Shown here piece after piece: positions 1,661 to 18,545 of a DNA stretch of 52,457 nucleotides (its first letter is position 1; each line of letters begins with the position of its first letter). The notes below the pieces were generated by a model. It saw nothing but the letters and a program-made list of their open reading frames with translations, was not told where the DNA came from and did not search any database. A program made the translations under genes and the position numbers. Location of the stretch: assembly GCA_016838885.1 (NCBI GenBank), contig JAEKNW010000215.1, forward strand, positions 1 through 52,457, in the 5' to 3' direction. The stretch comes from Candidatus Cloacimonadota bacterium (GTDB lineage: Bacteria > Cloacimonadota > Cloacimonadia > Cloacimonadales > JAFGVF01).

Positions 1661-4048
1661 GTGAGAAAAAAGATATTATATATTGATGTGCCCTTTTACG
1701 GAATTCATGGTGGAGACAAGAACAGATCAAATTTTTTATGGCGTATTTTAAAAGAGAATTTCACAGTAGATTTATTACTATTGAAGGATGCAAAATCAAC
1801 AAATTCGATAAATGATCACCATTGTGAGAATAATACCTATTTTTTAGAAGTACTTCCAGCAAAGTTAAGTAAGTCAGAAGCTATTTATGAGTTTTCTAAG
1901 AGTGAGTTAAGTGCCTTTGCTAATATTTTGAGGACTAATCAGTATGATATTATTTTTATGAGGTTTATTTCTCCCGGATTATTAGCTATTGAAGCAAGTA
2001 AAGTTAGCCCTGAAACACAGATAATAGTTGATGTTGATATGTTATTCTCTAGAATAGCAGCTATGAACTGGGCAGATAATCCCCGTTTTAGAAACAAATA
2101 CTTTTATTTTGAGAAGAAAAAGTTAGAGAAATTTGAATCAATTTTCTTCAACCATAATTTTACTTTCTTATTTACCAATGAATTTGAAAGAGATATGATC
2201 CTGAAAAAAATGAAATTGGACCATAGATCGCGATATTTCAAAGTATTACCAAATATGTTCAAGCAAGTAGAAGTTGATCTAGTGCCAAGTCTGGATGAAG
2301 GGAAATACATTCTAATCTTTGGGACAATGAACTCGGTCGCCAATCAAGACGGCTTCAAATTCTTTGTAACTGAGATTTATCCCTACATTCGCTCGGTCTT
2401 AGTAGATTTAGGCATTAAAGTGTTAGTAGTGGGAAAAAATCCTCTAGATTGGCAATATGAGTATCAAGATGATAGTCTTCGCATAGTTGGTCCGGTTGAT
2501 GATATTAACAGCTATATAAAAAACGCACTATTTATCTTCCTACCTCTAAGAATTGCCTCGGGAACAAGAACCAGAATCTTAGAAGCAGCTGCATTGAAAA
2601 AAACAATATTCACTTCCTCAATAGGAGCGGAGGGATTCAACTTTACGCGCCAAGAGATATTTATTGAGGATTCAGCTGAAGAGATTATCCCTAAGCTTAT
2701 TTATCTCTTAAAAAAACCTGACGAATATGCGGACATGGGAGAAAAACTATATACTAAATGTATGCAATTTTATGAAGAGAGCGTAGTAAAAGAACAAGTC
2801 CTAAGCTATGCTCAAGAAACATATAAATATGAAGTAAATGATCGTTCAGGAGAGAAAATGAAAGTTAATGCAGGAAAGAGGATTTGTATCGTTACCAATA
2901 GGTTCTATCCTGAAGTAGGTGGAGCAGAAACTAATATTTATTACCAGGCTAGAATGCTAGCTGAATCAAACGATGTTACTGTTATTTGTCCTCAGAGAAT
3001 AGATAAGCCATATTTAGAAGTGATGGACGGGATAACAGTTTATCGACTTAAAGATTTTTATAATAGAAAAAAAGTTTATCCAAATAAAGCAGCTAAAACT
3101 CTCTGTTTCGATGTTTTTGGTTTGATTTATTTCGGAAATTATGATGTTGTTCAAGTTTTCCCGGCTATTAATCCAAACAATATGATTGCTTTCTTTGCAG
3201 CCAAGCTTTCTAAGACTCCAATAATTTTAGCATCTTTTGATTATTTGGACTATGCCTCTATAATCAAAAAAGAGGGAACTATTAATCCTAATGTGCTGAG
3301 ATTCCATAAACCAAATGCTAAACATGTCTATTTCTTGAAGAGGTTTGACTATATCTTTGCAATTTCAAATAAGGAAATTGAGTTTTATAAAAAATATAAT
3401 AAAAATGTTGAATATTCACCTGTTCCTATTCTCTTGGATGAATATAAGGGTGATAAACCAAATCCGCGGCAAAAATATGGTATAGCTAATTCGGATTTTG
3501 TCTATTTAGTATTGGGCAGAATTTGTAATGTTAAAGGACAAGATATAGCATTAAGAGCATTTAATCAGGTAAGTAAAGAGATTCCTAAAGCAAAATTAGT
3601 ATTTGTTGGAAGATTCGATTACGAACCAGACTTTTATGATGAGATGCAGAAATATATGAGAAAGAATGATTTGTGCGAAAGGGTTGTATTCACTGGGATG
3701 GTTGAAAGAGAAGAGGTTTTAGGTTGGCTTAAATATGCTGATATTCATGTAATCCCTGTTAGATTTATGAATTCGGGAGCTGTTGTAGTTGAATCATGGA
3801 TTAGTGAGACACCGGTGATCCAGAGTGATGTAGTTGATCCGAACCTCGTTGTTGAAGGCGAGAATGGTTATCTCTTCCCACGTGAAGATTCGAAAACTTG
3901 TGCTGTTAAGATGATAAAAGCCTATAATGAAAGAGCTTTATTGGGGCAATTTGCTCAGAAAGGTAAAGAATTGGTTGAGAAAAAATATACATATCAATAC
4001 TTAACTAATCTATATCTTCGGGTATATGATAGTTTAAAAAAGAGATAG
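1661..4048 (+). CDS. Tandem two-domain glycosyltransferase
   Basis: First gene of the polysaccharide locus, 795 aa. It reads as two GT-B glycosyltransferases joined end to end. The first half (about 1-385) has the family-4-like C-terminal part with SGTRTRILEAAALKK. The second half (about 405-795) begins CIVTNRFYPEVGGAETNI, a typical GT4 N terminus, and has the donor-site region around VLGRICNVKGQDIALRAF and a C-terminal nucleotide-binding half. It probably adds two sugars from nucleotide-sugar donors at the inner face of the inner membrane. The GTG start at 1661 is preceded by a GGGGTGAG site. An in-frame ATG at 2858 near the junction could allow the second half to be made alone. Substrates cannot be read from the sequence. 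Confidence 0.85.
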   Translation: MRKKILYIDVPFYGIHGGDKNRSNFLWRILKENFTVDLLLLKDAKSTNSINDHHCENNTYFLEVLPAKLSKSEAIYEFSKSELSAFANILRTNQYDIIFMRFISPGLLAIEASKVSPETQIIVDVDMLFSRIAAMNWADNPRFRNKYFYFEKKKLEKFESIFFNHNFTFLFTNEFERDMILKKMKLDHRSRYFKVLPNMFKQVEVDLVPSLDEGKYILIFGTMNSVANQDGFKFFVTEIYPYIRSVLVDLGIKVLVVGKNPLDWQYEYQDDSLRIVGPVDDINSYIKNALFIFLPLRIASGTRTRILEAAALKKTIFTSSIGAEGFNFTRQEIFIEDSAEEIIPKLIYLLKKPDEYADMGEKLYTKCMQFYEESVVKEQVLSYAQETYKYEVNDRSGEKMKVNAGKRICIVTNRFYPEVGGAETNIYYQARMLAESNDVTVICPQRIDKPYLEVMDGITVYRLKDFYNRKKVYPNKAAKTLCFDVFGLIYFGNYDVVQVFPAINPNNMIAFFAAKLSKTPIILASFDYLDYASIIKKEGTINPNVLRFHKPNAKHVYFLKRFDYIFAISNKEIEFYKKYNKNVEYSPVPILLDEYKGDKPNPRQKYGIANSDFVYLVLGRICNVKGQDIALRAFNQVSKEIPKAKLVFVGRFDYEPDFYDEMQKYMRKNDLCERVVFTGMVEREEVLGWLKYADIHVIPVRFMNSGAVVVESWISETPVIQSDVVDPNLVVEGENGYLFPREDSKTCAVKMIKAYNERALLGQFAQKGKELVEKKYTYQYLTNLYLRVYDSLKKR

Positions 4049-4051
4049 TCA

Positions 4052-5224
4052 ATGAGAGCTTTAATCTACCACTCACTATACGGCTATGTTGGTGGGATAG
4101 AAAGATATATCCATAAAGTTGGTTCTTTATTCAAGAAAGAGGGATGGACTCTCTATGGCCTTTTTGAGTCCAGAGTCGATAATGTTGGAGATTTTGGTGA
4201 TATCTATAAAGATATTTATTTTGGGAATGAGAACAACTTAGATGATTTAATAAAGGAATTTTTTAGCTTAGAGATAGAGGTAGTTTTTATTCACAAAAGC
4301 AACAATATTAATATATTATCTGCTTTAAATAAGAATTTCTATACTATTAGCACAATTCACGACCATGATTATTATTGCTTTCGTAAGCATAAATACTTTC
4401 CCCTAAAAAGAATAAACTGCCCGCTACCAATGAACAGAATCTACTGTTCAATATGTTCCTTATTACTAAAAAGAGACAGTTCAAAGGCCTTAGGATTTTC
4501 TCTAATTAAGGCTCACGAAAAAATTGAATTGACTGAAGAGATTAAAGATGCCGATGCTACCATTGTATTATCTAAGTATATGATGAGAAATCTTGATCTC
4601 AATCGCTGGGATATGGATACGGTTTATAGAATTTATCCAATCCATCAAGTTACCCATACTGTTGATTATTTTCCACAAAAGACCTATCAGGCAAACTATC
4701 TTTTTGTCGGTCAACTAATCCGTGGAAAGGGGGTTGATATCCTAATTGAAGCCTGTCGGATCTTGAAACATGACTACTCTTTAAAGATCGTAGGAACCGG
4801 TAATGATTATGATTATATCAAAAAATTAATCGGCATGTATGGTCTGAATAGCAAAATTGAACTGGTTGGGTGGGTAGATGATGTAGAAAGATACTACTCA
4901 GAAGCAGACTTGGTAATAGTTCCCTCGCGTTGGCAAGAGCCTTTTGGCTTGATAGGAATAGAATCATTTAGTAGATGCGTACCTGTGGTCGGATTTGACG
5001 TGGGGGGAATATCAGAGTGGTTGCACCATGAAGAGAATGGTTATTTAGTAAGTAAAAAAAATAGCCAAGGTTTAGCAGAAGCTTTAGAATATCTGGACAA
5101 AAATTACCAACTCTTAGATAAATGGGGTAGAGCCGGTTATGACTATGTTAAAGAAAACTACTGTGAATCATGTTTCTTGCAATCCATTAAAAATATTCTA
5201 AACCAAGCAAAGGCTAAATTCTGA
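4052..5224 (+). CDS. GT4-family glycosyltransferase
   Basis: 390 aa, GT-B fold. The N terminus HSLYGYVGGIERYIHKVG matches the acceptor-side glycine-rich loop of GT4 enzymes. The C-terminal half has FVGQLIRGKGVDILIEA and the donor-site block PSRWQEPFGLIGIESF, containing the E-x7-E type motif, followed by GGISEWL. Four cysteines between residues about 125 and 140 (CPLP...CSIC) are unusual and could form a small metal site. Three bases separate it from the upstream gene and its TGA shares one base with the next ATG, so translation is probably coupled. Confidence 0.87.
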   Translation: MRALIYHSLYGYVGGIERYIHKVGSLFKKEGWTLYGLFESRVDNVGDFGDIYKDIYFGNENNLDDLIKEFFSLEIEVVFIHKSNNINILSALNKNFYTISTIHDHDYYCFRKHKYFPLKRINCPLPMNRIYCSICSLLLKRDSSKALGFSLIKAHEKIELTEEIKDADATIVLSKYMMRNLDLNRWDMDTVYRIYPIHQVTHTVDYFPQKTYQANYLFVGQLIRGKGVDILIEACRILKHDYSLKIVGTGNDYDYIKKLIGMYGLNSKIELVGWVDDVERYYSEADLVIVPSRWQEPFGLIGIESFSRCVPVVGFDVGGISEWLHHEENGYLVSKKNSQGLAEALEYLDKNYQLLDKWGRAGYDYVKENYCESCFLQSIKNILNQAKAKF

Positions 5225-6522
5225 TGACTGAACTAGAGTATAAAGAGATAATTCTCAATAAATTCAAAAAGCAAAAAGCAATAGTAAATTGGTTTAAGTT
5301 GGCTATTGGTAAATTTTTTCAGCTTATTTTTATTCTCCTGATTATGCTCCTTTTTACAATTCCCATTTTTCTTATTTTATGCTTTAGAAAGATGTTTTTA
5401 GGCATTCCTATGTTCTCCTCAAGCACTATTCTTGGCCATAACTCAAAAATCATAAAAATAACTACTTTTAACCTTAAAGGGCATCTTTTAAAGCACTTCT
5501 CCCTAATCTACCAACTTCTAATTGGTCAGATTCATTTTGTCGGGAATAGTTTTTTGTCTGATGAGCTAGAGTCAGATGAAAATATTTTACTCATAAGCAA
5601 ATTTGGTTATCCGGGGATATTTAATCTTTGGTTTATCAGAGAAAGCACTAAAATAGCTCATGAAGGACTCATAGTTACTGAACTGGAATATCTGGCGACT
5701 AAGAGCTTCAAACGGGATTTATCGCTAATTATCAAAACATTTCCAGCCCTCTTATTCAGAAGTTCTGAACAGTCTTACCAAGAAAAATTAGAAATATTTG
5801 ATCTGGAATTTGATAATATTTCGATGAAAGAGGGGCTGACCTTAATAGAAAATACTATTGATTCTGATAAAAAAAAGAAATTCTTTTTTGTCAATCCTGA
5901 TTGTATGAATAAATTATATAAAGATGACCAGTATTTTTCTATCTTAGAAAAAGCTGACTATATCTTCCCCGATGGAATAGGGATAAGTATTGCCTGCAAT
6001 ATTTTAAAGACTCCTCTTCTGGAGAATGTAAATGGGACTGATATGCTTCCCTTTCTGTGCGAAATGAGTGAGAAAAAGAATTATTCCTTATTTCTTTTTG
6101 GAGCAAAACCGGGAGTTGCAGAAAAAATGAAAAAAAAGCTTGAAGAAAAATATACTAATCTTAACATTGTAGGAATAAGAAGTGGCTACTTCGATTGGGA
6201 TCGTGACAGTTCCTCTATTGTTCAAGAAATTAATGATTCTCAAGCCACTATTCTCTTGGTTGCTTTCGGAGTTCCACTCCAAGAAAAATGGATAAGCGAA
6301 AATTTTGCTAAATTAAAGCCAAACGTGTTAATGGGAGTAGGAGGTTTATTTGATTTCTACTCCGGTCAAATGAAAAGAGCCCCTAAATGGATGAGAGAAA
6401 TTGGAATGGAGTGGTTCTTTAGATTAATTAAAGAACCAAAACGGATGTGGAAACGATATATTATAGGTAACCCACTCTTTATCTATCGCGTTTATAAATG
6501 GAAGAAGAAAAAAAATAGGTGA
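5224..6522 (+). CDS. WecG/TagA glycosyltransferase fused to a degenerate sugar-transferase domain
   Basis: The C-terminal part (about 195-432) is a WecG/TagA/CpsF enzyme (GT26), which transfers a sugar such as ManNAc to a lipid-linked acceptor. FFVNPDCMNKL, PDGIGISIA, NGTDMLP, FGVPLQEKW, GVGGLFDFYSG and APKWMREIGMEW are all family landmarks. The N-terminal 190 residues contain a membrane segment (about 27-52) and then track the phosphoglycosyl transferase encoded next door: LLIGQIHFVGNSFL stands where that protein has VLKGDMSLVGPRPP, and KFGYPGIFNLWFI where it has MPGITCLWQV. The catalytic Asp-Glu region is not kept, so this domain is probably inactive and may serve in membrane anchoring or complex formation. 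Confidence 0.87.
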   Translation: MTELEYKEIILNKFKKQKAIVNWFKLAIGKFFQLIFILLIMLLFTIPIFLILCFRKMFLGIPMFSSSTILGHNSKIIKITTFNLKGHLLKHFSLIYQLLIGQIHFVGNSFLSDELESDENILLISKFGYPGIFNLWFIRESTKIAHEGLIVTELEYLATKSFKRDLSLIIKTFPALLFRSSEQSYQEKLEIFDLEFDNISMKEGLTLIENTIDSDKKKKFFFVNPDCMNKLYKDDQYFSILEKADYIFPDGIGISIACNILKTPLLENVNGTDMLPFLCEMSEKKNYSLFLFGAKPGVAEKMKKKLEEKYTNLNIVGIRSGYFDWDRDSSSIVQEINDSQATILLVAFGVPLQEKWISENFAKLKPNVLMGVGGLFDFYSGQMKRAPKWMREIGMEWFFRLIKEPKRMWKRYIIGNPLFIYRVYKWKKKKNR

Positions 6523-6526
6523 TATC

Positions 6527-7240
6527 ATGGATAAAAGAATCAGAGACCAAAGAATAGAAAGATTGATGAAAATGACACAGAAGAAAAACAAGTCATCAAT
6601 CTCCTTTAAAATAGCCTTGTGGGACTACACTATTAAATCAGTTATTATGTTTAAGAAATTCTTAGATGTGATAGCTTCTTTAATCTTAATCATTTTACTA
6701 TCACCCCTCTTTGTAATTACTGCAATTTTAATCTATCTTGAAGACCCGGGACCTGTCTTTTATATTGCCCCAAGAGTAGGTAAAGATGGAAAGCATTTTG
6801 GCTTTATAAAATTTAGATCAATGGTGATGAATGCAGATAAAATTAAAGACCAGTTATTGGATCAAAATGAATCTAAAGCCGGGGTTATCTTCAAAATGAA
6901 AAGAGATCCAAGAGTAACTAAAACAGGTAGATTTATTAGAAGATTTAGTATTGATGAACTTCCACAGCTTTTCAATGTCCTTAAAGGAGATATGAGCTTG
7001 GTTGGCCCTAGACCTCCTCTACCCCGTGAAGTTGCAGAATATACTCTTTTGGATAGGAAAAGATTGCACGTAATGCCAGGCATAACATGTCTCTGGCAAG
7101 TAAAAGGTAGAAGTGATATTCCCTTTGATGAACAGGTGGAACTGGATATGCAGTACATCAAATCAAGTAGTTTTTGGAAAGATATAAAGATTTTGTTAAT
7201 GACTATTCCTGCTGTGATTAGTGGGAAAGGTGCTTATTAA
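6527..7240 (+). CDS. Polyprenyl-phosphate sugar-1-phosphate transferase (bac_transf family)
   Basis: 237 aa, the catalytic monotopic type of phosphoglycosyl transferase (WbaP/ExoY/PglC superfamily). It starts lipid-linked repeat-unit synthesis by moving a sugar phosphate to undecaprenyl phosphate at the inner membrane. One hydrophobic segment (about 44-70) precedes DPGPVFY, RVGKDGKHFGFIKFRSM, the Asp143-Glu144 dyad in SIDELPQL, the GDMSLVGPRPP block and PGITCLWQVKGRSDIPF. Everything needed for activity is present. It lacks the large N-terminal membrane domain of WbaP. It starts four bases after the WecG-like gene. It is the only intact copy of this domain in the window; two neighbours carry decayed versions. 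Confidence 0.93.
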   Translation: MDKRIRDQRIERLMKMTQKKNKSSISFKIALWDYTIKSVIMFKKFLDVIASLILIILLSPLFVITAILIYLEDPGPVFYIAPRVGKDGKHFGFIKFRSMVMNADKIKDQLLDQNESKAGVIFKMKRDPRVTKTGRFIRRFSIDELPQLFNVLKGDMSLVGPRPPLPREVAEYTLLDRKRLHVMPGITCLWQVKGRSDIPFDEQVELDMQYIKSSSFWKDIKILLMTIPAVISGKGAY

Positions 7241-7260
7241 ATAAATAAACTGGAGGAACA

Positions 7261-7599
7261 ATGGAGTTAAGTTTTGAACTGAGAGAAAATGTTGGTGTAC
7301 TTAAAGTTAGTGGTAGATTGGATGCATATAATTCGACTGAATTCAAAGAGAGTTTTACCAAATATACCGAGCAAACGGTTAATTTCGTGCTTGATTTAAG
7401 TAATTTAGACTTCTTAGATAGTACTGGTTTAGGTAGTTTAGTTGCCTGCTTAAAAGCAATATCAGAAAAAGATGGCGATATTAGAATTGCAAATATGTCT
7501 GAAAAGCCACGCATGGTCTTCGAAATAACTAGAGCTTATAAAATCTTCGAAATATTTGATGATGTAGATGTTGCTATAATGAGCTATGAGGCTGACTAA
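7261..7599 (+). CDS. STAS-domain anti-sigma-factor antagonist
   Basis: 112 aa, a single STAS domain of the SpoIIAA/RsbV type. The helix start LDFLDSTGLGSL carries the phosphorylatable serine (Ser54 in DSTG). In known systems an HPK-like kinase phosphorylates this Ser and a PP2C phosphatase releases it, setting which partner is bound. No such kinase or phosphatase is encoded in the window. Its position between polysaccharide genes, 20 bases after the sugar transferase with a GGAGG site, suggests that it regulates polysaccharide output or ties it to a partner-switching pathway; that is inference. Confidence 0.9.
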   Translation: MELSFELRENVGVLKVSGRLDAYNSTEFKESFTKYTEQTVNFVLDLSNLDFLDSTGLGSLVACLKAISEKDGDIRIANMSEKPRMVFEITRAYKIFEIFDDVDVAIMSYEAD

Positions 7600-7612
7600 C
7601 CCCGAGGTTTAA

Positions 7613-9001
7613 ATGAAATGCCTAATTTACACCCGCGTTGAAGATATGACATGGAAAGAGGAGTGTTTTCATAAGACAAACCCCTACCTCTTGAAAATAG
7701 TCAATAAGCCTCATTTAGAGTATTTTATTGACTTCTGTTCCACTTTGCAGATTAACGAGATTAGAATTGTTAGCAACAATGCAACTAATGATTTGAGTGA
7801 TTACTTCAAAGAAGGGAAAAAATGGGGTGTCGAAATTAGTTATAATATTGCTAGACCAGAAGATACTCTGAAAAGAGTTCTGCTCAAAAACTTCTCCTTC
7901 TGCAAGGATGATGATGTATTAATTATCTCTGATTACTTCTTTTTAGAACATGATATCAAACTTCTCAAAGAAAAAAGTGAGGAGATTATTCAATTCATTG
8001 CATCACATAAAAGTAAATATCTTCAAATTCTAACCAAAGGGGCATCTGTAAAAGAAATCGAAGAGGAAGAGGATTTTCCAGAGAACCCCTATATGTCTGT
8101 TAAACTAATCACTAGTGTTATGGATTATTACAATCTCTCGATGGATATTCTCAGTAATCGATGCTGTAACTATGTTCTACCCGGTTATAGCTCAGAACCA
8201 CGTACCTACCTCGGGATGAATGTCTCATATCCAAAATCAGCAACTATCGATACACCTGTTATGATTGGTAATAATGTGAGACTAGGGGAGATGGTCGGGA
8301 TTGGTAAAAATAGCATTATTGGCGATAATATTATCATCGAGTCTTTGACTAATATCTCCAATAGTATTATTTATAGTGACTCTTTTGTTGGGAGTGATCT
8401 CGAAATTGATAACAAAATTATCTATCATAACAAGTTGATTTCTGGGAAAACCGGGCAAGTAATAATTATGAGTGATGATTACCTAATCTCCAGCATCAGT
8501 AAAGAGAAAGAGATTGGAAAAGTTCAAAAAAGTATCCATTTCATCATAGCTTTTATCCAAATTATCATTCAAACTATTCCCTTCCTACTAGTTATACCAT
8601 TCCTGTATTTTATCCATAGGAAATATAACCTCACCCAAATTTACTACCTTGCTAAAGATAAGAAGATTAAAAGGATGTTTAGTGTTGATAATGCTCGAAA
8701 ACATCCATTTATTAAGTTAATCAAGAAATTCTCATTAGATAAATATCCCTATCTTTTCTATGTGATTAGCGGGAAAATGCTACTTGTGGGTAATAAACTT
8801 TTTACTATGACTCGCCGACATAAAGAGATAATTACCAATTTACCATGCTACCAGCCGGGAGTTTATAGCTATTGGGAAAGTTTAAATCAAGGGTTTAGTT
8901 CTGAAGAAGAGATTCATGAACTATACTATATTAATAACAACAATTTTTGGAGTAATCTCTATATCTACTGCAAAATCAACTTCTTAAGGTTATTCTGGTA
9001 A
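7613..9001 (+). CDS. Nucleotidyltransferase-like, beta-helix and degenerate sugar-transferase fusion
   Basis: 462 aa in three parts. Residues about 1-170 look like a nucleotide-sugar pyrophosphorylase fold, but the glycine-rich nucleotide loop is absent. Residues about 195-275 have hexapeptide-like turns (IGNNVRLGEMVGIGKNSIIG) of a left-handed beta-helix. After a membrane segment (about 305-327), the C-terminal 110 residues follow the phosphoglycosyl transferase pattern: FSLDKYPYLFYVISGKMLL against FSIDELPQLFNVLKGDMSL in the intact enzyme, then PGVYSYW against PGITCLW. The catalytic Glu is replaced by Lys and the GPRP block is lost. The protein is probably non-catalytic or altered, perhaps a scaffold. 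I know no standard name for this architecture. Confidence 0.75.
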   Translation: MKCLIYTRVEDMTWKEECFHKTNPYLLKIVNKPHLEYFIDFCSTLQINEIRIVSNNATNDLSDYFKEGKKWGVEISYNIARPEDTLKRVLLKNFSFCKDDDVLIISDYFFLEHDIKLLKEKSEEIIQFIASHKSKYLQILTKGASVKEIEEEEDFPENPYMSVKLITSVMDYYNLSMDILSNRCCNYVLPGYSSEPRTYLGMNVSYPKSATIDTPVMIGNNVRLGEMVGIGKNSIIGDNIIIESLTNISNSIIYSDSFVGSDLEIDNKIIYHNKLISGKTGQVIIMSDDYLISSISKEKEIGKVQKSIHFIIAFIQIIIQTIPFLLVIPFLYFIHRKYNLTQIYYLAKDKKIKRMFSVDNARKHPFIKLIKKFSLDKYPYLFYVISGKMLLVGNKLFTMTRRHKEIITNLPCYQPGVYSYWESLNQGFSSEEEIHELYYINNNNFWSNLYIYCKINFLRLFW

Positions 9002-9006
9002 AGCCT

Positions 9007-9615
9007 ATGCACCTAATTCTAATTGGCGGAGGAACTAGTTCAGGTAAGACTACGATTGCAAAGCAGATTACTAGTCAGTTGAACAATCAAAATGTCTATA
9101 CCTTCTCTCACGATAATTACTACTATGATTTAGCGAATTTATCTCCTAAGGAGATTAAAAAGATTAATTTTGATCATCCGGATGCTATAGACAGCTCAAG
9201 GCTAATCTCCGATGTGAAAGATATTTTGAATAAGCAAGAGATTTATATTCCTGATTATGACTTTATATCTCATCGTCGTATTCAAGGTGAGTTTATCCAT
9301 AATCGTTACGATGTCATTATCCTAGAAGGGATATTCGCACTGTACTTCCCTGAGTTGGTTAAACTAGCTTCACTTAAAGTTTTCGTGGATACTGACGCAG
9401 ACTTAAGGCTTGCTCGAAGAATTGACAGAGATATTAACGAAAGAGGATTTACTATCAATGAAGTGCTAACTCAATATATCGAAACTGTCAAACCGATGCA
9501 TGATATTTTTATCGAAGGGACTAAAAAACAAGCTGATATCATTATACCCGGAGAGAAAAAGTTTGATCGCGTTCTAATCATGATTAATGGCTACTTAAAG
9601 GAATTATTAGGATAA
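9007..9615 (+). CDS. udk: Uridine kinase-like P-loop kinase
   Basis: 202 aa, close to the usual 200-210 aa of uridine/cytidine kinases. The Walker A loop GGTSSGKT lies at residues 8-15, SHDNYYYD gives the substrate-binding Asp-Tyr region, FDHPDAID follows as in Udk, and RRIDRDINERG forms the lid. It would phosphorylate uridine or cytidine to the monophosphate in the cytosol. Placement inside a polysaccharide operon could support UDP-sugar supply, or the protein could have a specialised substrate. It starts five bases after the upstream stop. Confidence 0.85.
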   Translation: MHLILIGGGTSSGKTTIAKQITSQLNNQNVYTFSHDNYYYDLANLSPKEIKKINFDHPDAIDSSRLISDVKDILNKQEIYIPDYDFISHRRIQGEFIHNRYDVIILEGIFALYFPELVKLASLKVFVDTDADLRLARRIDRDINERGFTINEVLTQYIETVKPMHDIFIEGTKKQADIIIPGEKKFDRVLIMINGYLKELLG

Positions 9616-9618
9616 ATT

Positions 9619-10746
9619 ATGGGAAAATATACTCTTACCGGCTCACAAGAATTTGATAATATGATCGATGACCAACTTAAAATGGTAACTGAAGAGATTT
9701 TAAACCTTATTCCACCCGATGATATCGCAGCAATTCTCTTAGGTGGTGGTTATGGACGAGGTGAAGGTGGGGTATTAATAGAAAATAACAAAGAATTTCT
9801 CTATAATGATTATGACCTCTTTGTTATCCTAAAAAATGTTAATTTGTTGAAAAAAAGAGATTACCAAAATAGAATCCATCTTATTCATGAGAAGTTTACT
9901 CCCCTCGTTAAAATTGATGTCGATGTAGGTCCCCTCCAAACTGTCAATGCTATTTCAAAGGCTCCCCATTGGATGATGTGGTATGAACTAAAAAATGGTT
10001 TCAAACTTCTCTGGGGAAACCAATCAATTAGAAGCTATTTCCCTGATTACCCCCACGATAAAATGCCATTAATGGAAGCATATAGACTTCTTCTAAACAG
10101 AGGAGTTGGCTTGTTACTCTGTAAACAACACTTTGAAACTTATGAAGAGACAGAATCTCAAGAGTTTATTCTCAGAAATATTAGAAAGGCTCAATTGGCT
10201 ATGGGTGATGCTTACCTAATTAAAAAGAAAAGCTTCCATTACTCTTACAAAAAACGAGATGAAATTTTCTCTGAACTGGAAAATGATCAAGATATGATTA
10301 ACTTAAATATCTATAATCATTACAAAATAGCCTACCAATTTAAAGAAAAACCACATAAACCTAATTTAACTAAAGAAGAGTATTTATCAGAATATCACAA
10401 TCTTCTTACAATCTATGAATCACTCTATAACTGGATATTTACTAATGAGGTCTCTGATAAACTAAACTTGGAGACCTATCAGAAAATCTTGAATGAGATA
10501 TTTACAGAAAAGAGAAATCTACCAGATTTATTTAAAAACATTTGCAAAAGTATAAAAATCAACTATTCTAAATTCGATATTAATTTAATATCTAAACACC
10601 CACGTTATAGATTGTTTATGACCTTACCGTATTTTTTGTTTAATCAACAAAATATTAGTTGCCAAAAACTACTTAGCTGTAATAATTGTAGTAATGAAAA
10701 AGATTTACTAAAATTCTTCTTTAATTTGTGGGAAAAAAATAATTAG
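9619..10746 (+). CDS. Nucleotidyltransferase-fold protein of unknown role
   Basis: 375 aa, cytosolic, no signal peptide. GGGYGRGEG (residues 42-50) followed by NDYDLF (63-68) is the G-x-G...D-x-D pattern of the polymerase-beta nucleotidyltransferase fold, and DVDVG near residue 100 may give a third acidic position. The rest is mainly helical. A CNNCSNEK cluster lies close to the C terminus. It starts three bases after the uridine kinase gene, so the pair may act together on a nucleotide or sugar. No precise substrate can be assigned. Confidence 0.65.
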   Translation: MGKYTLTGSQEFDNMIDDQLKMVTEEILNLIPPDDIAAILLGGGYGRGEGGVLIENNKEFLYNDYDLFVILKNVNLLKKRDYQNRIHLIHEKFTPLVKIDVDVGPLQTVNAISKAPHWMMWYELKNGFKLLWGNQSIRSYFPDYPHDKMPLMEAYRLLLNRGVGLLLCKQHFETYEETESQEFILRNIRKAQLAMGDAYLIKKKSFHYSYKKRDEIFSELENDQDMINLNIYNHYKIAYQFKEKPHKPNLTKEEYLSEYHNLLTIYESLYNWIFTNEVSDKLNLETYQKILNEIFTEKRNLPDLFKNICKSIKINYSKFDINLISKHPRYRLFMTLPYFLFNQQNISCQKLLSCNNCSNEKDLLKFFFNLWEKNN

Positions 10747-10760
10747 GATAATAAAACATA

Positions 10761-12785
10761 ATGATAGATGAAAATAAAATTAGTGAGATTGAACAGCATA
10801 AAAAAGATGCTGAGCTAGAAGAGAAATCTCCTTTAGTTATAGATAAAAGAGTCTTATTGATCTCTTTTAGGTCTAAACTCAAGTGGATTATTCTTATTAC
10901 TCTCTCTTTCATGGTTCTTGTTTCTATCATTGTTTCAATTAAGGTTAAACCTGTTTGGCGAGCTAATTGTCGCGTCATTAGAATGCAGAAAAATATCTCT
11001 ACTCCTACTGATATGCCCTACCTCTATAATGCTTTTGATATTAACACAATTCTTGAAACTGCACGCTCACGTCCTATTATTCTTTCTATCATGAAAAAGT
11101 TGGATATGAAAGGTTATGAACCAGAAGACGTTGGAAGAATGATAGAAGTACAGAGAGGTAATCGTTCCAATGTGCTAAGTTTCAGCGTTACAGACAGTGA
11201 TCCTGAAAGAGCTGTTGAAATGGCCAATATTCTTGGAGAAACCTTCATTGAAACAAGCACCAGACTTCAAAACGCCAGTGCTGATAGCGTCTATAACTAC
11301 TATTACCAAGAAAGAGAAAAAAGTTTAGCTAATATCGCAAGACTGGAAAAAAGTATCTTAGAATTTCAAAAAGAAAATGATGTAATATCCATAGATTCTG
11401 AACGTGATCAATTATACGAAAAGTTAAAACTTGTTGAAGTTAGAAAAATCGAGTCTCTTATGAAAATCGATGAGATGAGAGTTAAAATTTCCGATTTAGA
11501 AAAGAAAATGGCTGAACTTCCTCAAGAAGTGATGATGACTTGGACATTCACTAATACAGACGAAAAGAAGCTGATTCTACTTAAAAAAGAGTTGGAACTT
11601 CTTATGACTCGTTATACTACTATTAATCCTAAGGTGCAGAATCTTCAAGCTGAGATAGATACCTTAGAATTAAAGATTGCTAATCCTGACAGAGCACCAG
11701 AACCGCCCGATAATACAAGTTGGGGACCAAATGGGTTGATTCAAACTTATGAAGTAGATAAGACTCGTTACGAAGGAGAATTAAAGGCTGCTAGAGCTAA
11801 TCTTATAGGTTATAATAACGAAATAAAGGGAATTAAAAATAACTTAATCCATTTTAATACCATCAATGATAATCATTTAGAACTTCAAAGACAGCTTGAG
11901 TTAAGCAAAGATGTTTTAAGAATTATTGAAGGAAGAATTGCAGAATCAAGGATGGCTCTTGATACTAATACTAATGATTTCCAATTGTTTGAACGTGCTG
12001 TTATGCCTAAATATCCTGTCAATATTAGTAAGAAAATTATTGTCTTAGGTTCTGGTATGTTTATGGGATTCATTCTCTTAGTATTCTTCATTGGTAAAGA
12101 ACTCTTTGATTTCAGAGTTAAATCAAAACTTGATTATGAGAAGTATATTGGGATTCCATTACTTGGTCAAATACCTTCTGAAGAGGGAGCTAATGCCAAT
12201 AAATTCTATGCTAACTTGCAATTCATGCTTGATAATCTGTTTGATGTCATTAAAGGGGTCCCAAAACCACCAATTATTACTATTGGTAGTGTTAATCCTG
12301 AAACAGGTAAGTCATTTCTTATGAATGAGTTTAGTAAGATGTTAGGCTCTACTTCTAAGGTGTTAATAATTGAGTGTGTCAAAGATTTATCCATTGAAAT
12401 AGAAGATTATGAAATCAATACTTATCTAGATGACGATAAACCTTTTGAAGTGAAAGAGATTTCAGCAAATATTAATAAATGTTATTTCTGGACTGGAGAA
12501 CAAATCTTCAAGAAGATGTATAAAACAAGCGACTTCCATAAACTTTATGGTCTTTTTATGGACTATGATTACATCCTTTGGGAATTATTCCCGTCAAATT
12601 ATAATATCCAACTCTACCATGCAGTTACTAAATCTGCAGATGCTAATTTGTTAGTTGGAAGATTTAGATATTCTCCAAAAACTGATTTATTTAATTTGGT
12701 TAATTATCTTCATGAAAAAGATGTTCAAAAAGTATATGGAATACTTAACAATATTCCTAAAGAGTATTACGTGGAAACTTTGTAG
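10761..12785 (+). CDS. Wzc-like polysaccharide co-polymerase with degenerate kinase domain
   Basis: 674 aa. A Wzz-type chain-length domain is bounded by membrane segments at about 36-57 and 416-440, with long coiled coils between them in the periplasm. The cytosolic part (about 455-674) has the outline of a bacterial tyrosine kinase. The Walker A-like GSVNPETGKS is kept. Where active enzymes read LIDADxR, this one reads VLIIECVKD, and the Walker B Asp is also absent (YDYILWEL). The C-terminal tail has only one YY pair rather than a tyrosine cluster. It probably controls chain length with the adjacent Wza-like exporter, without normal autophosphorylation. It starts 14 bases after the upstream gene. 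Confidence 0.85.
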   Translation: MIDENKISEIEQHKKDAELEEKSPLVIDKRVLLISFRSKLKWIILITLSFMVLVSIIVSIKVKPVWRANCRVIRMQKNISTPTDMPYLYNAFDINTILETARSRPIILSIMKKLDMKGYEPEDVGRMIEVQRGNRSNVLSFSVTDSDPERAVEMANILGETFIETSTRLQNASADSVYNYYYQEREKSLANIARLEKSILEFQKENDVISIDSERDQLYEKLKLVEVRKIESLMKIDEMRVKISDLEKKMAELPQEVMMTWTFTNTDEKKLILLKKELELLMTRYTTINPKVQNLQAEIDTLELKIANPDRAPEPPDNTSWGPNGLIQTYEVDKTRYEGELKAARANLIGYNNEIKGIKNNLIHFNTINDNHLELQRQLELSKDVLRIIEGRIAESRMALDTNTNDFQLFERAVMPKYPVNISKKIIVLGSGMFMGFILLVFFIGKELFDFRVKSKLDYEKYIGIPLLGQIPSEEGANANKFYANLQFMLDNLFDVIKGVPKPPIITIGSVNPETGKSFLMNEFSKMLGSTSKVLIIECVKDLSIEIEDYEINTYLDDDKPFEVKEISANINKCYFWTGEQIFKKMYKTSDFHKLYGLFMDYDYILWELFPSNYNIQLYHAVTKSADANLLVGRFRYSPKTDLFNLVNYLHEKDVQKVYGILNNIPKEYYVETL

Positions 12786-12791
12786 GTTAAT

Positions 12792-13838
12792 ATGAATAAA
12801 ATAAAAATTATCTTATTTCTGATCTTGGTTCTTGTTATTGTAAGTTGTAGTAAAGAGGCATATATTGAAGAGAATATTGATGTCCCGGGAGAATACTTAG
12901 AAGAATCTTCTGTATCTACCCAGGAGGATCAGCAAACTATTGATGAGCTAACAAAGCTGCAACAAGTAAAAATGCCAACATATTTGATTGGCCCTGATGA
13001 TAAGTTTCATGCTTATGTCTATAATGAAGAAGATTTAAACACTAAAGAGCTTATTGTTAAGCGTGATGGAACTCTTACATTTCCCTTGATAGGAGAAGTA
13101 CATGTCGAAGGTTTAGAGCTGGAAGAGGCTACTAAGCTTATTAAGCAAAAACTTGAAGCTTATATCACTCATCCTGAAGTTACTATTATCCCTTATGAAA
13201 TAAATAGTGGAACAGTAACTATCCTGGGGAAGGTAACTTATCCTCAACAATATCAAATCAAAGGCGAAATGAGAATATTGGATTTAATTGCTAATGCCGG
13301 TGGTTTAGCTTTAGGTTATTTTCAAAATAATTCTATTGAATTAGCAGATTTAGAAAGATCCTTCATAGTCCGTAATAACAAAGTTTTACCTATTGACTTC
13401 TATGCTCTTATTAAACAGGGAAATATGCTTAATAATATTCCTCTCATGGGAGGAGATTACATCTATCTTCCATCATCAATTAATAGGGAAGTTTATGTTG
13501 TTGGTGAAGTGTTAGAGCAAGGTCATTTTGCCTTCAAAGAGAATATGACACTAGGACAAGTTATAGCTTATGCTCAAGGGTTGAAACCTTCTGCAAAGAC
13601 TTCAACTGTTTATTTAGTGAGAGGAAACTTAAAACACCCAAGATTATTTAAGATTAATTTGGATGCTATCTATCAAGGCAAGATTATGGACTTTAGATTA
13701 AAGCCCAATGATATTGTTTATGTCCCTAAAACCCCTATTGCTAGCTGGAACTTAGTATTAGAACAGATACTTCCAAGTTTACAAGCTGTTCAAACAGGCT
13801 ATATACTGCAAAATATTATTGAAGATACTAACAATTAA
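12792..13838 (+). CDS. Wza-like polysaccharide export lipoprotein
   Basis: 348 aa with a lipoprotein signal ending VIVSC (Cys19). A poly-export domain follows from about residue 58 (YLIGPDDKFHAYVYNE, then RDGTLTFPLIGEV), and then SLBB-like domains (GTVTILGKVTYPQQYQI and REVYVVGEVLEQGHFAF). Such proteins form the outer-membrane channel for capsule or exopolysaccharide and dock to the Wzz/Wzc partner, here encoded six bases upstream. A C-terminal amphipathic stretch (about 320-345) could be the membrane helix. Function is known for the family; the polymer is unknown. Confidence 0.92.
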   Translation: MNKIKIILFLILVLVIVSCSKEAYIEENIDVPGEYLEESSVSTQEDQQTIDELTKLQQVKMPTYLIGPDDKFHAYVYNEEDLNTKELIVKRDGTLTFPLIGEVHVEGLELEEATKLIKQKLEAYITHPEVTIIPYEINSGTVTILGKVTYPQQYQIKGEMRILDLIANAGGLALGYFQNNSIELADLERSFIVRNNKVLPIDFYALIKQGNMLNNIPLMGGDYIYLPSSINREVYVVGEVLEQGHFAFKENMTLGQVIAYAQGLKPSAKTSTVYLVRGNLKHPRLFKINLDAIYQGKIMDFRLKPNDIVYVPKTPIASWNLVLEQILPSLQAVQTGYILQNIIEDTNN

Positions 13839-13843
13839 GTATC

Positions 13844-15196
13844 ATGACTGAAGCCTTAAGTGCCTTTAAGTATGTAATTTTCTTTGCTGTGATGCTGATT
13901 GGAGTGCCATTAGGCTATTCTTTTTCGCTTAAATATGATAAGGTAGAGAGGGCTATATTTTTCTTAATGGTGTTTTTTACTGTTAAGATGGAAGATATCA
14001 ATTTCGTTTCAAGAGAAACAGAGAGGTTAACTTCCAAGGGTTTTGAGATTGGGATGGTTGATATTTGTACAATGATTATCTTTCTTGTAGTTATGCACAA
14101 GAAAGGTATCAAAAACAGAATTCCCAAAGGGGCTCATTGGTATTTTGTTTATTTTGGCTTAAGTGTAATATCCATAATTAATGCTGATTTTGTTCTTTTT
14201 TCTATGTTTGAAGTATGGAAAATGATCAGAATGTACTTTTATTTTTGGACTATCTATAATTATATTGATACAGATAAGAAGTATTTTGATTTTCTCAAAG
14301 GTGTAGCTGCCATTACCGTTTTTGTATTTTATGAAGTGATTAAGCAGAAGTATTTAGATGGGAAGTTTCAAACTGCGGGTCCTTTCCCGCATCAGAATTC
14401 GCTTGTGATGTATATGATTATCTATGGTTCCATTGCCTTTTCTTATCTAATTAACAAAGCTGACTTAGCTATAGATAAATTAGTTGTCTGGTTGATGATT
14501 TTTGGGATGTCATCAGTATCAGTTATTTCCACCCTGTCTCGGGCAGGGTTAGCTTTATATGCTTTTGCCATTGTAATTGTTTTAGGTTTATCCTTTTTTA
14601 ATGGGTTTAATCCGAAGAAGATTGCAGTTACTTTTCTGTTGATTATTATGAGTTTAGCAGTTTTAGCAAAAGCTTGGGATTCAATCACGGAGCGCTTTAG
14701 CACAGCACCAGAAGAATCTGCCTTGGTGCGGGTTTCTTTAGCTCAAGCAGCAGTGAAGATGGCTGGCGATAAGAAGTTAGGTTATATGGGGGTGGGATTA
14801 AATAATTTTGGTAGAGCGATTAACCCTCCATATCCCTATAGTTCACATATTGAGATGCATGATGAAGAAGATGAAGAGGAGAGAAATGGTTTAGTAGAGA
14901 CCATTTATTTAATGATAGCTGCTGAATCCGGGTGGCACACATTAGTATTCTTCTTTGTATTTCTCTTTTATTATTACTTCTTGAACTTAGTAAATGTCTT
15001 TAGATATAAAGGGAGCAACCTGCAATTCCTGTCCATAGGATTAGTTGGAGGCTTGTTAGCAATTTATATTGAGTCTGGTTTAGAATGGGTGTTAAAGCAG
15101 ACGAATAACTTCTATCAATTGATGTTGATTTTTGCTTTAATTGCATCAATGGATAGGCTATATCATATAAAAGTTAGAAAGGGTGAATTGAAATGA
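13844..15196 (+). CDS. O-antigen ligase/polymerase-like membrane protein
   Basis: 450 aa with about ten hydrophobic segments and one large loop between about residues 290 and 355, the layout of the Wzy/WaaL (PF04932-like) family. STLSRAGLALYAF matches the conserved block before the loop and GVGLNNFG the one inside it. It would polymerise lipid-linked repeat units or ligate the polymer at the periplasmic face. Its acid-rich loop (HDEEDEEERNG) is distinctive. It starts five bases after the Wza gene and overlaps the next gene by four bases (ATGA). Confidence 0.85.
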   Translation: MTEALSAFKYVIFFAVMLIGVPLGYSFSLKYDKVERAIFFLMVFFTVKMEDINFVSRETERLTSKGFEIGMVDICTMIIFLVVMHKKGIKNRIPKGAHWYFVYFGLSVISIINADFVLFSMFEVWKMIRMYFYFWTIYNYIDTDKKYFDFLKGVAAITVFVFYEVIKQKYLDGKFQTAGPFPHQNSLVMYMIIYGSIAFSYLINKADLAIDKLVVWLMIFGMSSVSVISTLSRAGLALYAFAIVIVLGLSFFNGFNPKKIAVTFLLIIMSLAVLAKAWDSITERFSTAPEESALVRVSLAQAAVKMAGDKKLGYMGVGLNNFGRAINPPYPYSSHIEMHDEEDEEERNGLVETIYLMIAAESGWHTLVFFFVFLFYYYFLNLVNVFRYKGSNLQFLSIGLVGGLLAIYIESGLEWVLKQTNNFYQLMLIFALIASMDRLYHIKVRKGELK

Positions 15197-15600
15197 GGAC
15201 ACCACAAGAAGAACAAGAAAAGAATATTAAACAGATAGGAAGCGATAGATTTAGAGAGAACTTGAATATTGAACAGCGTAATCAGCTTAAATCTATGTTG
15301 AAAAAGATGTTACCTCCTGTTCCTTCCATTGGTATTATAGATATTAGGTTTTCTTTTTGGTTTTTTAGGCAATGGTATGTAGTTTTTATTTTTGGTAGAG
15401 ATACTCGAGAAGGGTTTAAGACTCTTGATAAAGGTGATGTTGATAGATCATTAAGTATTGTAGCGAAAGCAACAACGTATATAGTTATGATGATTACTAT
15501 TCTGATAATGTTGTTATTCTTACTTTATGCTTTAAAGAGTGTGATTGGAATAGATTTGTTTCCAGACAAGCATTTAAGTGATTTTTTGCCTTGGAAATAG
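15193..15600 (+). CDS. Small membrane protein, unknown
   Basis: 135 aa. The N-terminal 45 residues are charged, a semi-hydrophobic FSFWFFRQWYVVFIFG lies at about 54-69, and one strong membrane segment covers about 96-118. The ATGA overlap with the ligase/polymerase gene implies translational coupling. I do not recognise the family. Its position suggests an accessory role at the membrane assembly complex. Confidence 0.6.
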   Translation: MRTPQEEQEKNIKQIGSDRFRENLNIEQRNQLKSMLKKMLPPVPSIGIIDIRFSFWFFRQWYVVFIFGRDTREGFKTLDKGDVDRSLSIVAKATTYIVMMITILIMLLFLLYALKSVIGIDLFPDKHLSDFLPWK

Positions 15601-15618
15601 AGTGGAGATGGAGTATTA

Positions 15619-16575
15619 ATGAAATATAATAAAACAGTTGTTACAGCATGTGATAGTAATTATATTTGGGGTGCTTATATCTTAGTTGCCTCCCTATGTT
15701 ATTTTAATGTAAAGAGTTATAAAAAGGTTTTAGGAATTATATTAACTGAAGAGGAACAAGAATTGCTCAATCAATTTCCGGATACACAAGTAGTAAATAG
15801 TAATCGGGAGACAGATAAGAGTGTTTGTTTAATGAAGCCCCATGCTTTTTTCTCTGCTGAGACAGATTTGATAGCTTGGATGGATTCTGATTGTATTGTT
15901 ACCGGAGATGTTACGGATTTTATTGAAGTTGAGGATGATGAGCTTCAGATTAGGTTTAGGTCTTTTGAAGAGAATTCAGGAGTTTATCGTAATTATTATG
16001 GAAAGAATGACGAACCAGGCTTAATACCCCATAAAGTTCTTGATACATGGAGAGTAGATGTTAATGATTATGATGACCCTCAAATATCAACCGTATGTGA
16101 AACGAATTGTTTTGTTATCAGGAAAAAGAACCTAGACTTTATTCAACTATGGAAAACTCAGATGGAGAAGGTGATTATAGATAATAACTTACAGGTTTAT
16201 GATAAAAATAGTGTGGGTTATTTCATGACGGATGAATCTGTTTTAAATTCATTAATGGCTTACTCAAGCAAAGCTTTAAAGGTAAAAGAATATCAATTTG
16301 ATAAAGATAAAAGCAAATTATTAGTTCACTTTGGTTTAAATCCTAAACCTTGGATACATTGGACAAAGCGTGGATTGTTACATTATGATTTAACAATGGA
16401 GATTCTTGATTGGTGCAAAAGGCAGGGATATAAGTTACCTCCTTTTCCATCATCTTTTAGACCAAATAATAAATATAAAGAGCTCTTAATGGCTAATATC
16501 AGACATTATTTTAACTCTTTTAAATACCGAGTTTCTACTACTCTTCACAGTTTTCATAGAAAGGTAAGAAATTAA
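15619..16575 (+). CDS. GT-A fold glycosyltransferase
   Basis: 318 aa, cytosolic. The N terminus VVTACDSNYIWGAYILVASL and the metal-binding motif MDSDCIVTGD (about residues 91-100) are typical of GT-A enzymes related to GT8. TDESVLNSLM later in the chain fits the catalytic helix region. The C terminus is basic and may contact the membrane. It would use a nucleotide sugar and a divalent cation. The start is preceded by GGAG. Sugar specificity is unknown. Confidence 0.75.
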   Translation: MKYNKTVVTACDSNYIWGAYILVASLCYFNVKSYKKVLGIILTEEEQELLNQFPDTQVVNSNRETDKSVCLMKPHAFFSAETDLIAWMDSDCIVTGDVTDFIEVEDDELQIRFRSFEENSGVYRNYYGKNDEPGLIPHKVLDTWRVDVNDYDDPQISTVCETNCFVIRKKNLDFIQLWKTQMEKVIIDNNLQVYDKNSVGYFMTDESVLNSLMAYSSKALKVKEYQFDKDKSKLLVHFGLNPKPWIHWTKRGLLHYDLTMEILDWCKRQGYKLPPFPSSFRPNNKYKELLMANIRHYFNSFKYRVSTTLHSFHRKVRN

Positions 16576-16577
16576 CA

Positions 16578-17726
16578 ATGAAGATATTAATTATTTCCAA
16601 CTATTACCCACCTCATTTTAAGGGAGGATATGAATTATCCTGTTATGAAGTAACAACTTATTTATATGAACAGGGTGAGGATGTCTTGGTTTTATGTGGA
16701 GATTATCTAAAGAATGAGCCTGATAATCGTAGCAATTATAGAGTTGTTCGTAAGTTAAAATACATAGATTATTTGAGTGATGATTATTGGAACAAGAGTA
16801 AGGTTGAAAAAGATAATTATGAAATGACAACTAGAATTCTTGATGAATTTGAACCTGATTTTGTTTATTTCTGGAATCAACAATATCTCTCTCTAGCACC
16901 CTATTGGGCTGTTAAGAGAAGAAAGATAGCTCATGTATTTGATATTGGGGATGTATGGCCTTTAAAGTATTATAGAGAGGGTTTCAAGGCAAAGGTGAAG
17001 TCTTTTATCAAGAGATTGTTACCTAATTTCAGAGATGCCAAGATGGAGGTTAATCCTGTGATTATCTTATCTGAATGGATGCGACCATTGTTTGTTGAGA
17101 AATTTGGGTCTAAGGAAATCTATAATATTCCTAGAGGGGTAAAGCTCAAAGAAGATCTTCAAATAAACTCAAAAGCTGATGATATCAAGCTGATGTTTGC
17201 TGGAAGAATCGAGCCTCTCAAGGGACTTGAGCTGATTATCAATGTTCTCTCAGGCTTACAAGCTTATAAATGGACATTAGATGTTTATGGTGATGGAGAT
17301 GAAGATTATCTAGAGAGAATAAAATTACTTATTACAGAGAAGTCTTTAGGCCAAAGGGTAATTCTCAAAGGCAAGCTATATCCTTTAGATGAAGCTTACC
17401 AGACTCATGATGTTTTTCTCTTTCCTACTTTAGCAAAAGAGGGCTTTGGTCGGGTTGCTATTGAAGCAATGTCTTATGGTCTTCCTGTTCTTACGGTTAA
17501 TAAGTATGGTCCCAATGATATAGTAGAAGACGGATATAATGGATATAAGGCTTCTCCAAGTGATCTTTCTGCTTGGGCAAATAATTTAAAACAAATATTG
17601 TCAGATAAGGATTTATTGATTAAAATGTCTAATAATGCCCTAGAAACAGTCAAAAATAAATATGATATTGAACTTATCAACAAACAAAGATATGATATTA
17701 TAAAAGATATTTACTACTCAAAATGA
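16578..17726 (+). CDS. GT4-family glycosyltransferase
   Basis: 382 aa. The N terminus LIISNYYPPHFKGGYELSC has the typical GT4 acceptor loop, MFAGRIEPLKGLELIINVL the start of the donor domain, and FPTLAKEGFGRVAIEAMSYG the conserved E-x7-E donor site. DIVEDGYNGY closes the family pattern. It probably adds one sugar of the repeat unit at the inner membrane face. It starts two bases after the GT-A gene. Confidence 0.92.
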   Translation: MKILIISNYYPPHFKGGYELSCYEVTTYLYEQGEDVLVLCGDYLKNEPDNRSNYRVVRKLKYIDYLSDDYWNKSKVEKDNYEMTTRILDEFEPDFVYFWNQQYLSLAPYWAVKRRKIAHVFDIGDVWPLKYYREGFKAKVKSFIKRLLPNFRDAKMEVNPVIILSEWMRPLFVEKFGSKEIYNIPRGVKLKEDLQINSKADDIKLMFAGRIEPLKGLELIINVLSGLQAYKWTLDVYGDGDEDYLERIKLLITEKSLGQRVILKGKLYPLDEAYQTHDVFLFPTLAKEGFGRVAIEAMSYGLPVLTVNKYGPNDIVEDGYNGYKASPSDLSAWANNLKQILSDKDLLIKMSNNALETVKNKYDIELINKQRYDIIKDIYYSK

Positions 17727-17733
17727 GGTTTTT

Positions 17734-18543: not shown

Positions 18544-18545
18544 TA

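Follow-up and report, generated by a model that had tools for sequence, protein, structure and literature searches.

Why should a polysaccharide operon contain two phosphoglycosyltransferase (PGT) domains that appear to be inactive, each fused to another enzyme, next to one PGT that is intact? The question is raised by a stretch of 52,457 nucleotides (the window; contig JAEKNW010000215.1 of assembly GCA_016838885.1) within the 3.3-Mb draft genome of a Candidatus Cloacimonadota bacterium. A run of genes on one strand with short gaps (1661-20141), which includes GT4 glycosyltransferases and looks like a Wzx/Wzy-type polysaccharide cluster, contains three genes with PGT-related products: a 432-residue fusion to a WecG domain (WecG fusion, 5224-6522; open reading frame, Pfam, AlphaFold model and structure match), a small monotopic PGT (6527-7240) and a 462-residue protein (NT fusion, 7613-9001) that consists of a nucleotidyltransferase (NT) domain, a left-handed beta-helix (LbH) and a PGT-like domain. 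All features described here lie on the forward (+) strand. An initial annotation, made from the DNA letters and their translations, had given the coordinates and reading frames of the three genes correctly, and had described the PGT-like domains as decayed. In fact, they are old, conserved pseudoenzyme domains under purifying selection, not decaying copies. The NT fusion may be a regulatory pseudoenzyme beside the initiating PGT of an exopolysaccharide operon, set by a switch composed of a STAS protein and a kinase-phosphatase, with the dead domain of the WecG fusion as an optional anchor; we would give this reading an even chance of being correct.

Both fusions contain a PGT-like domain

Against the Pfam family Bac_transf (PF02397, cut-off 27 bits), the intact PGT scored 227 bits. 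Residues 353-454 of the NT fusion were above the cut-off (37.5 bits, E 2.3e-9), residues 95-177 of the WecG fusion were just under it (24.8 bits, E 1.8e-5), and the WecG fusion with its neighbours reached 27.8 bits in the whole-genome scan. With hhalign, the pseudo-PGT domain of the NT fusion (pPGTn; residues 294-462, positions 8492-8998) matched the intact PGT with a probability of 97.0 (E 1.2e-10), and that of the WecG fusion (pPGTw; residues 22-179, positions 5287-5760) with a probability of 97.2 (E 2.9e-11), while the two matched each other more closely than either matched the PGT (98.5, E 1.9e-15). A chance resemblance is ruled out by column-shuffled controls, every one of which (n=15) gave a probability below 1. 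Among solved structures, a joint profile of the two pseudo-domains found WbaP and PglC only (7/7 distinct sequences). For the WecG fusion, residues 22-179 of an AlphaFold model (mean predicted local distance difference test score, pLDDT, 82) matched PglC (8e37) with a Z score of 10.3 and a root-mean-square deviation (rmsd) of 3.0 over 153 residues. The proposal that both fusions contain PGT domains was therefore confirmed by the hidden Markov model search and hhalign, with the structure match as further confirmation in the case of the WecG fusion. The remainder of the latter protein (5770-6519) is a WecG/TagA/CpsF (GT26) domain that is apparently intact (PF03808, 219 bits; TarA/TagA structure match with Z 26.1, rmsd 1.6 and 36% identity).

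The pseudo-domains lack catalytic residues and are maintained

The intact PGT, assigned by Pfam and by its residues, has the dyad Asp143-Glu144 and the GPRP motif, and DELPQ, GPRP and KFRSM are present in all 22 intact neighbouring PGTs. In the NT fusion of the window the dyad site reads Asp376-Lys377 and GPRP is replaced by GN; in pPGTw the dyad and GPRP are missing, and the catalytic segment around the dyad is deleted, being absent altogether from the alignment. Both dyad changes had been recognized in the initial annotation, and its conclusion that the fold was preserved and catalysis lost is supported by the profile and fold matches and the absence of dyad and GPRP. The same pattern is found in relatives: none of 23 full-length NT fusions has the dyad Glu, 20 have Lys in its place, and GPRP has become GN in 22. 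Of 15 stretches examined ahead of WecG, none contains DE[LIF]P or a GPRP-like motif; L062 and L063, two of the 15, are GT4 and not pseudo-PGT domains. There is no sign that these genomes are generally prone to dead PGT domains: Asp-Glu is present in all seven further distinct PGTs that were read. A second PGT-like family of about 540 residues or more, with Asp-Glu but with GVR for GPRP, is present in the same genome and in relatives (L087:2008-3633, L135).

In close pairs, the ratio of nonsynonymous to synonymous substitution rates (dN/dS) was 0.18 and 0.14 for pPGTn, 0.086 and 0.090 for pPGTw (one further pair was saturated at synonymous sites), and 0.02-0.10 for the intact PGT. Because the dead residues are conserved across relatives and dN/dS is low in close pairs, the pseudo-domains are maintained and kept across the Cloacimonadota, and the term "decayed" has to be abandoned. 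A sequencing error or a pseudogene is ruled out by open frames in most relatives together with purifying selection; a few single matches contain stop codons.

One possible function of such domains would be that of an anchor, which merely holds WecG and the soluble NT-LbH protein at the membrane and leaves the PGT unaffected. In the models of both fusions one long hydrophobic helix, which may or may not be re-entrant, is kept at the N-terminus and further helices at the C-terminus, as expected of an anchor, and the pseudo-PGT domain on WecG is optional: it is present in 10 of the 18 Cloacimonadota NT-fusion loci that have WecG on the contig, the other eight having plain WecG or GT4-WecG. The two fusions, which the initial annotation had treated alike, are thus not equivalent. 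However, the purifying selection extends over the whole PGT core, which is more than an anchor needs, the conserved Lys for Glu would serve no anchor, and the NT domain that would have to be anchored is dead itself. Anchoring as the only function is therefore unlikely.

It is considerably more improbable, and the least favoured explanation here, that the dead domains still bind undecaprenyl phosphate (Und-P) or Und-PP-sugar and shuttle substrate or product from one of the two enzymes, PGT and WecG, to the other. Of the 23 NT fusions, 19 retain the dyad Asp and all have E-x-x-Y and the PG motif's P, and WecG-family enzymes use the PGT product as their substrate in the TagA pathway, which is analogous; yet the Arg of GPRP is gone from both pseudo-domains, and pPGTw is devoid of the entire catalytic segment.

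Several variants of the WecG module were observed. GT4-WecG fusions, with or without an intervening pseudo-PGT domain, occur in relatives (L062, L063, L078, L079, L161), and therefore the WecG module is often rearranged. Three pseudo-PGT-WecG proteins (L080, L081, L082) have an additional C-terminal stretch of about 130 residues.

In a phylogenetic tree, the pPGTn sequences formed one group (support 100/100), as did the pPGTw sequences (91/82), and the active PGTs were split from both (80/95); the tree includes long branches. Since the pseudo-domains form groups of their own, a recent duplication of the neighbouring PGT is ruled out. The initial annotation had counted two losses of catalysis. 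The tree allows a single ancestral dead PGT lineage behind both pseudo-domains, and two independent inactivations, which it neither shows nor rejects, may also have occurred.

The NT domain also lacks its catalytic signature

The first 190 residues of the NT fusion (7613-8182) matched the nucleotidyltransferase family PF00483 with 23.5 bits (cut-off 21.2). The best structure match of the protein was tlr0611 (8x7s; Z 22.3), which was also the best match by sequence (E 4.1e-15), followed in structure by eIF2B subunits (Z about 18). The signature of sugar-1-phosphate nucleotidyltransferases is a G-x-G-T-R loop and a metal-binding Asp, and both are lacking in the protein of the window as well as in all other full-length NT fusions (0/23 for each). 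The NT half of this fusion is thus predicted to be a pseudoenzyme in its own right, and the protein would be dead in two domains, NT and PGT, which flank the LbH (8183-8482).

A STAS gene and a kinase-phosphatase accompany the NT fusion

Between the intact PGT and the NT fusion lies a gene that had been overlooked (7261-7599). It encodes a stand-alone STAS protein of 112 residues, recognized by Pfam (a single STAS domain, 75.6 bits) and by the phospho-serine motif DSTGLG; DSTGLG or DSSGLG is present in 20/20 cases. In all 25 Cloacimonadota loci the STAS gene lies immediately ahead of the gene for the NT fusion, in the same orientation, with a gap of 9-80 bp in 24 and of 303 bp in one, and in 22 of the 25 a PGT gene precedes it, the remaining three being two contig ends and genome G019. 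Co-occurrence of the fusions in other genomes, a check proposed in the initial annotation, was found repeatedly. The STAS protein of the window is the only stand-alone one in its genome; a second match above the cut-off is inside a 557-residue frame.

The same genome encodes one HATPase_c_2 protein above the curated cut-off. It has the architecture REC-PP2C(SpoIIE)-HATPase, and its gene is on another contig, adjoining two glycosyltransferase genes. A short HATPase of 168 residues (L171:1351-1857), which at 20 bits is below the HATPase_c_2 cut-off, is encoded beside genes for iron-sulphur proteins. The REC-PP2C-HATPase architecture was confirmed by phmmer in 8/8 relatives' loci examined. Across 98 genomes, this kinase-phosphatase was found in 22/22 genomes with the NT fusion versus 4/76 without it, one of the four (G084) having pseudo-PGT-WecG and PGT genes; among the genomes that lack the NT fusion, 30 have a PGT-domain match, and two of these 30 have the kinase-phosphatase. 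It should be noted that a kinase was counted only if the query end of the match was at least 495, i.e., with the HATPase domain, that shorter matches were scored as absent (G010, G020, G003, G012, G008, G013, G014, G039), and that NT-fusion matches weaker than E 1e-20 were likewise scored as absent (G012, G058, G062). When presence was shuffled within the four genera of mixed presence, the observed overlap was reached 5 times in 200,000; the plain Fisher value of 3e-18 ignores relatedness. The kinase gene shares a contig with the NT fusion in four genomes (G009, G025, G027, G041) and with PGT/WecG in two more (G031, G043), i.e., in 6 of 22. On a Victivallaceae contig (L102), the STAS gene is followed by a gene for a REC-PP2C-HATPase_c_2 protein, and pseudo-PGT-WecG, PGT and NT-LbH-pseudo-PGT are encoded on the same contig. 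The NT fusion is thus tied to STAS and PGT by gene order and to the kinase-phosphatase by presence and absence.

STAS proteins and HATPase_c_2 proteins are described as classic regulators of sigma factors (PMC10120452), and the STAS motif is canonical. An alternative would be that the protein regulates transcription as an ordinary anti-sigma-factor antagonist and is encoded in this operon by coincidence. This is quite improbable considering that the STAS gene adjoins that of the pseudoenzyme in 25/25 loci, and that the kinase-phosphatase gene is found beside glycosyltransferase genes in the genome of the window and on a contig of the cluster in six relatives. SypA, which has a similar set-up, also argues against it, since it acts below transcription according to PMC10120452; the review PMC8256260 describes it as initiating transcription.

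Distribution and neighbouring genes

In the class searched, the NT fusion is present in 25/124 genomes and 15/50 genera. A wider scan covered 84,980 species, with a single genome per species and one peptide pattern, which distant relatives can escape. Of its 21 loci, two are from Victivallales (Lentisphaerota), two from metagenome-assembled genomes that bear the label Armatimonadota, and one is a weak archaeal match (E 2e-4) that lacks a pseudo-PGT match; the others are from Cloacimonadota. The two genomes labelled Armatimonadota (L096, L099) contain the same cluster, and their labels look wrong. The NT fusion had no match in the plasmid collection. Among the publications listed by the literature searches, none dealt with a pseudo-PGT or an NT-LbH-PGT fusion; an earlier mention is possible in O'Toole 2021 (PNAS), which is said to deal with monoPGT domain fusions.

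Downstream of the NT fusion, the window encodes a uridine-kinase-like P-loop protein (9007-9615), whose presence next to the NT fusion is limited to part of the relatives; it was found in G001, G055 and G100 as well as on the Victivallaceae contig. It is followed by a conserved cluster protein of 375 residues (9619-10746), for which no match was found in Pfam, NCBIfam or PHROG and no family was assigned; its GGG-x-GRGE ... DYDLF stretch is reminiscent of a polymerase-beta-type nucleotidyltransferase. A PHROGs search with three cluster proteins gave weak matches only. Then come a Wzz-like copolymerase (10761-12785; 19.3 bits, below cut-off, kept in the relatives' clusters) and, both from profile searches, a Wza-like polysaccharide export protein (12792-13838) and an O-antigen ligase/polymerase-like protein (Wzy_C, 13844-15196). 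A small membrane-like protein of 135 residues (15193-15600) without a Pfam family is kept in most relatives' clusters, and a further open reading frame (18546-20141) is also kept there; we take its product to be a probable flippase (Wzx).

Discussion

The initial annotation had suggested that the dead domains act as a membrane anchor or as a hetero-oligomer scaffold for the intact transferase. A conserved non-catalytic role beside the intact PGT is upheld by the results; anchoring alone is not, because the STAS gene at the locus and the kinase-phosphatase elsewhere in the genome argue for regulation. The regulatory reading can be formulated as a series of steps. The intact PGT would carry out the first lipid-linked step of exopolysaccharide synthesis. 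Via pPGTn, the NT-LbH-pseudo-PGT protein might dock on the inner membrane, beside the active PGT or as a hetero-oligomer with it, while its pseudo-NT/LbH part might sense a nucleotide sugar or provide an oligomer platform, as GMPPA does for GMPPB. The kinase-phosphatase would phosphorylate and dephosphorylate the STAS protein, which in turn would bind the assembly of pseudoenzyme and PGT and switch initiation on or off. The domain pPGTw could be an optional anchor to the membrane or the PGT, bringing the second glycosyltransferase, WecG, to the lipid-linked product.

A bolder version is rather doubtful at present, only slightly less so than anchoring alone. Initiation would be gated by a doubly dead pseudoenzyme, one end of which reads the supply of nucleotide sugar while the other holds the PGT, and the phospho-switched STAS protein would set its state; if this were true, SypA-class STAS proteins of other bacteria would act on the PGT machinery of initiation. 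Little is known about how the first step of Und-P-dependent glycan synthesis is controlled, and a conserved pseudo-PGT next to a STAS switch is a concrete candidate for the binding partner of SypA-like STAS proteins. The target question for SypA or HmpV thus becomes testable with a few named proteins. In addition, the dead PGT fold would be reusable as a protein module.

Several points weigh against the regulatory reading. Contact among PGT, pseudoenzyme and STAS protein is presumed from the genes. Structure searches with the model of the NT fusion gave pPGTn no match of its own, the NT domain filling the lists, and the LbH part of that model has a low confidence (pLDDT about 60); the LbH could still be an acyltransferase. 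With the dyad Asp retained in most NT fusions, some chemistry on lipid or phosphosugar may persist. The PGT gene of G019 is located elsewhere, and on the Victivallaceae contig the STAS gene is 8.4 kb away from the NT fusion. The co-occurrence with the kinase-phosphatase could arise if the polysaccharide cluster were gained and lost as a whole, without a direct link. Last, outside the Cloacimonadota the full NT-LbH-pseudo-PGT protein was seen in only two Victivallales records.

The components of the proposed switch have counterparts in known systems. Both pseudo-domains and the intact PGT are related by sequence to the monotopic PGTs PglC and WbaP, and pPGTw also by fold; the pseudo-domains differ from these in lacking the catalytic dyad and GPRP. 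The C-terminal domain of the WecG fusion corresponds to TagA/TarA/WecG (GT26), the N-terminal pseudo-PGT being an extra here. The NT fusion resembles tlr0611, annotated as a UTP-glucose-1-phosphate uridylyltransferase, in its NT-LbH architecture; the protein of the window and its 22 other full-length relatives differ by the missing glycine loop and metal Asp and by the added pseudo-PGT. Known NT-LbH regulators are eIF2B gamma/epsilon and GlgD, which, like GMPPA, share with the NT fusion the NT-LbH fold and the use of a dead NT domain for regulation or sensing. To our knowledge, none of these has a PGT domain. GMPPA is described as a dead NT-LbH protein that regulates its active paralogue GMPPB (PMC11228364).

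The SypA/SypE system of Vibrio fischeri resembles the window in that a polysaccharide locus encodes a STAS protein that stands alone and has a phospho-serine (PMC4517449, PMC10120452). Like SypE, the kinase encoded in the genome of the window is a response-regulator protein with serine kinase and phosphatase parts, which would act on the STAS protein of the window; it differs in its domain order, REC-PP2C-HATPase. The STAS gene of the window is locked to the PGT and the NT pseudoenzyme, an arrangement that the available parts of the syp accounts do not describe. The target of SypA is stated there to be unknown (PMC10120452, PMC4517449), and the same is said of HmpV in the consulted part of PMC8256260, which also mentions a glycosyltransferase of Anabaena, all4160, that has a STAS domain at its N-terminus. 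In a recent case, from Myxococcus xanthus, direct interaction with EpsW is reported to activate the PGT EpsZ (PMC12802240). In both systems a small switch protein would directly target the PGT that starts a Wzx/Wzy pathway; EpsW is a single-domain receiver and EpsZ a large PGT, whereas in the operon described here the corresponding parts are a STAS protein, a small PGT of 237 residues and a pseudo-PGT.

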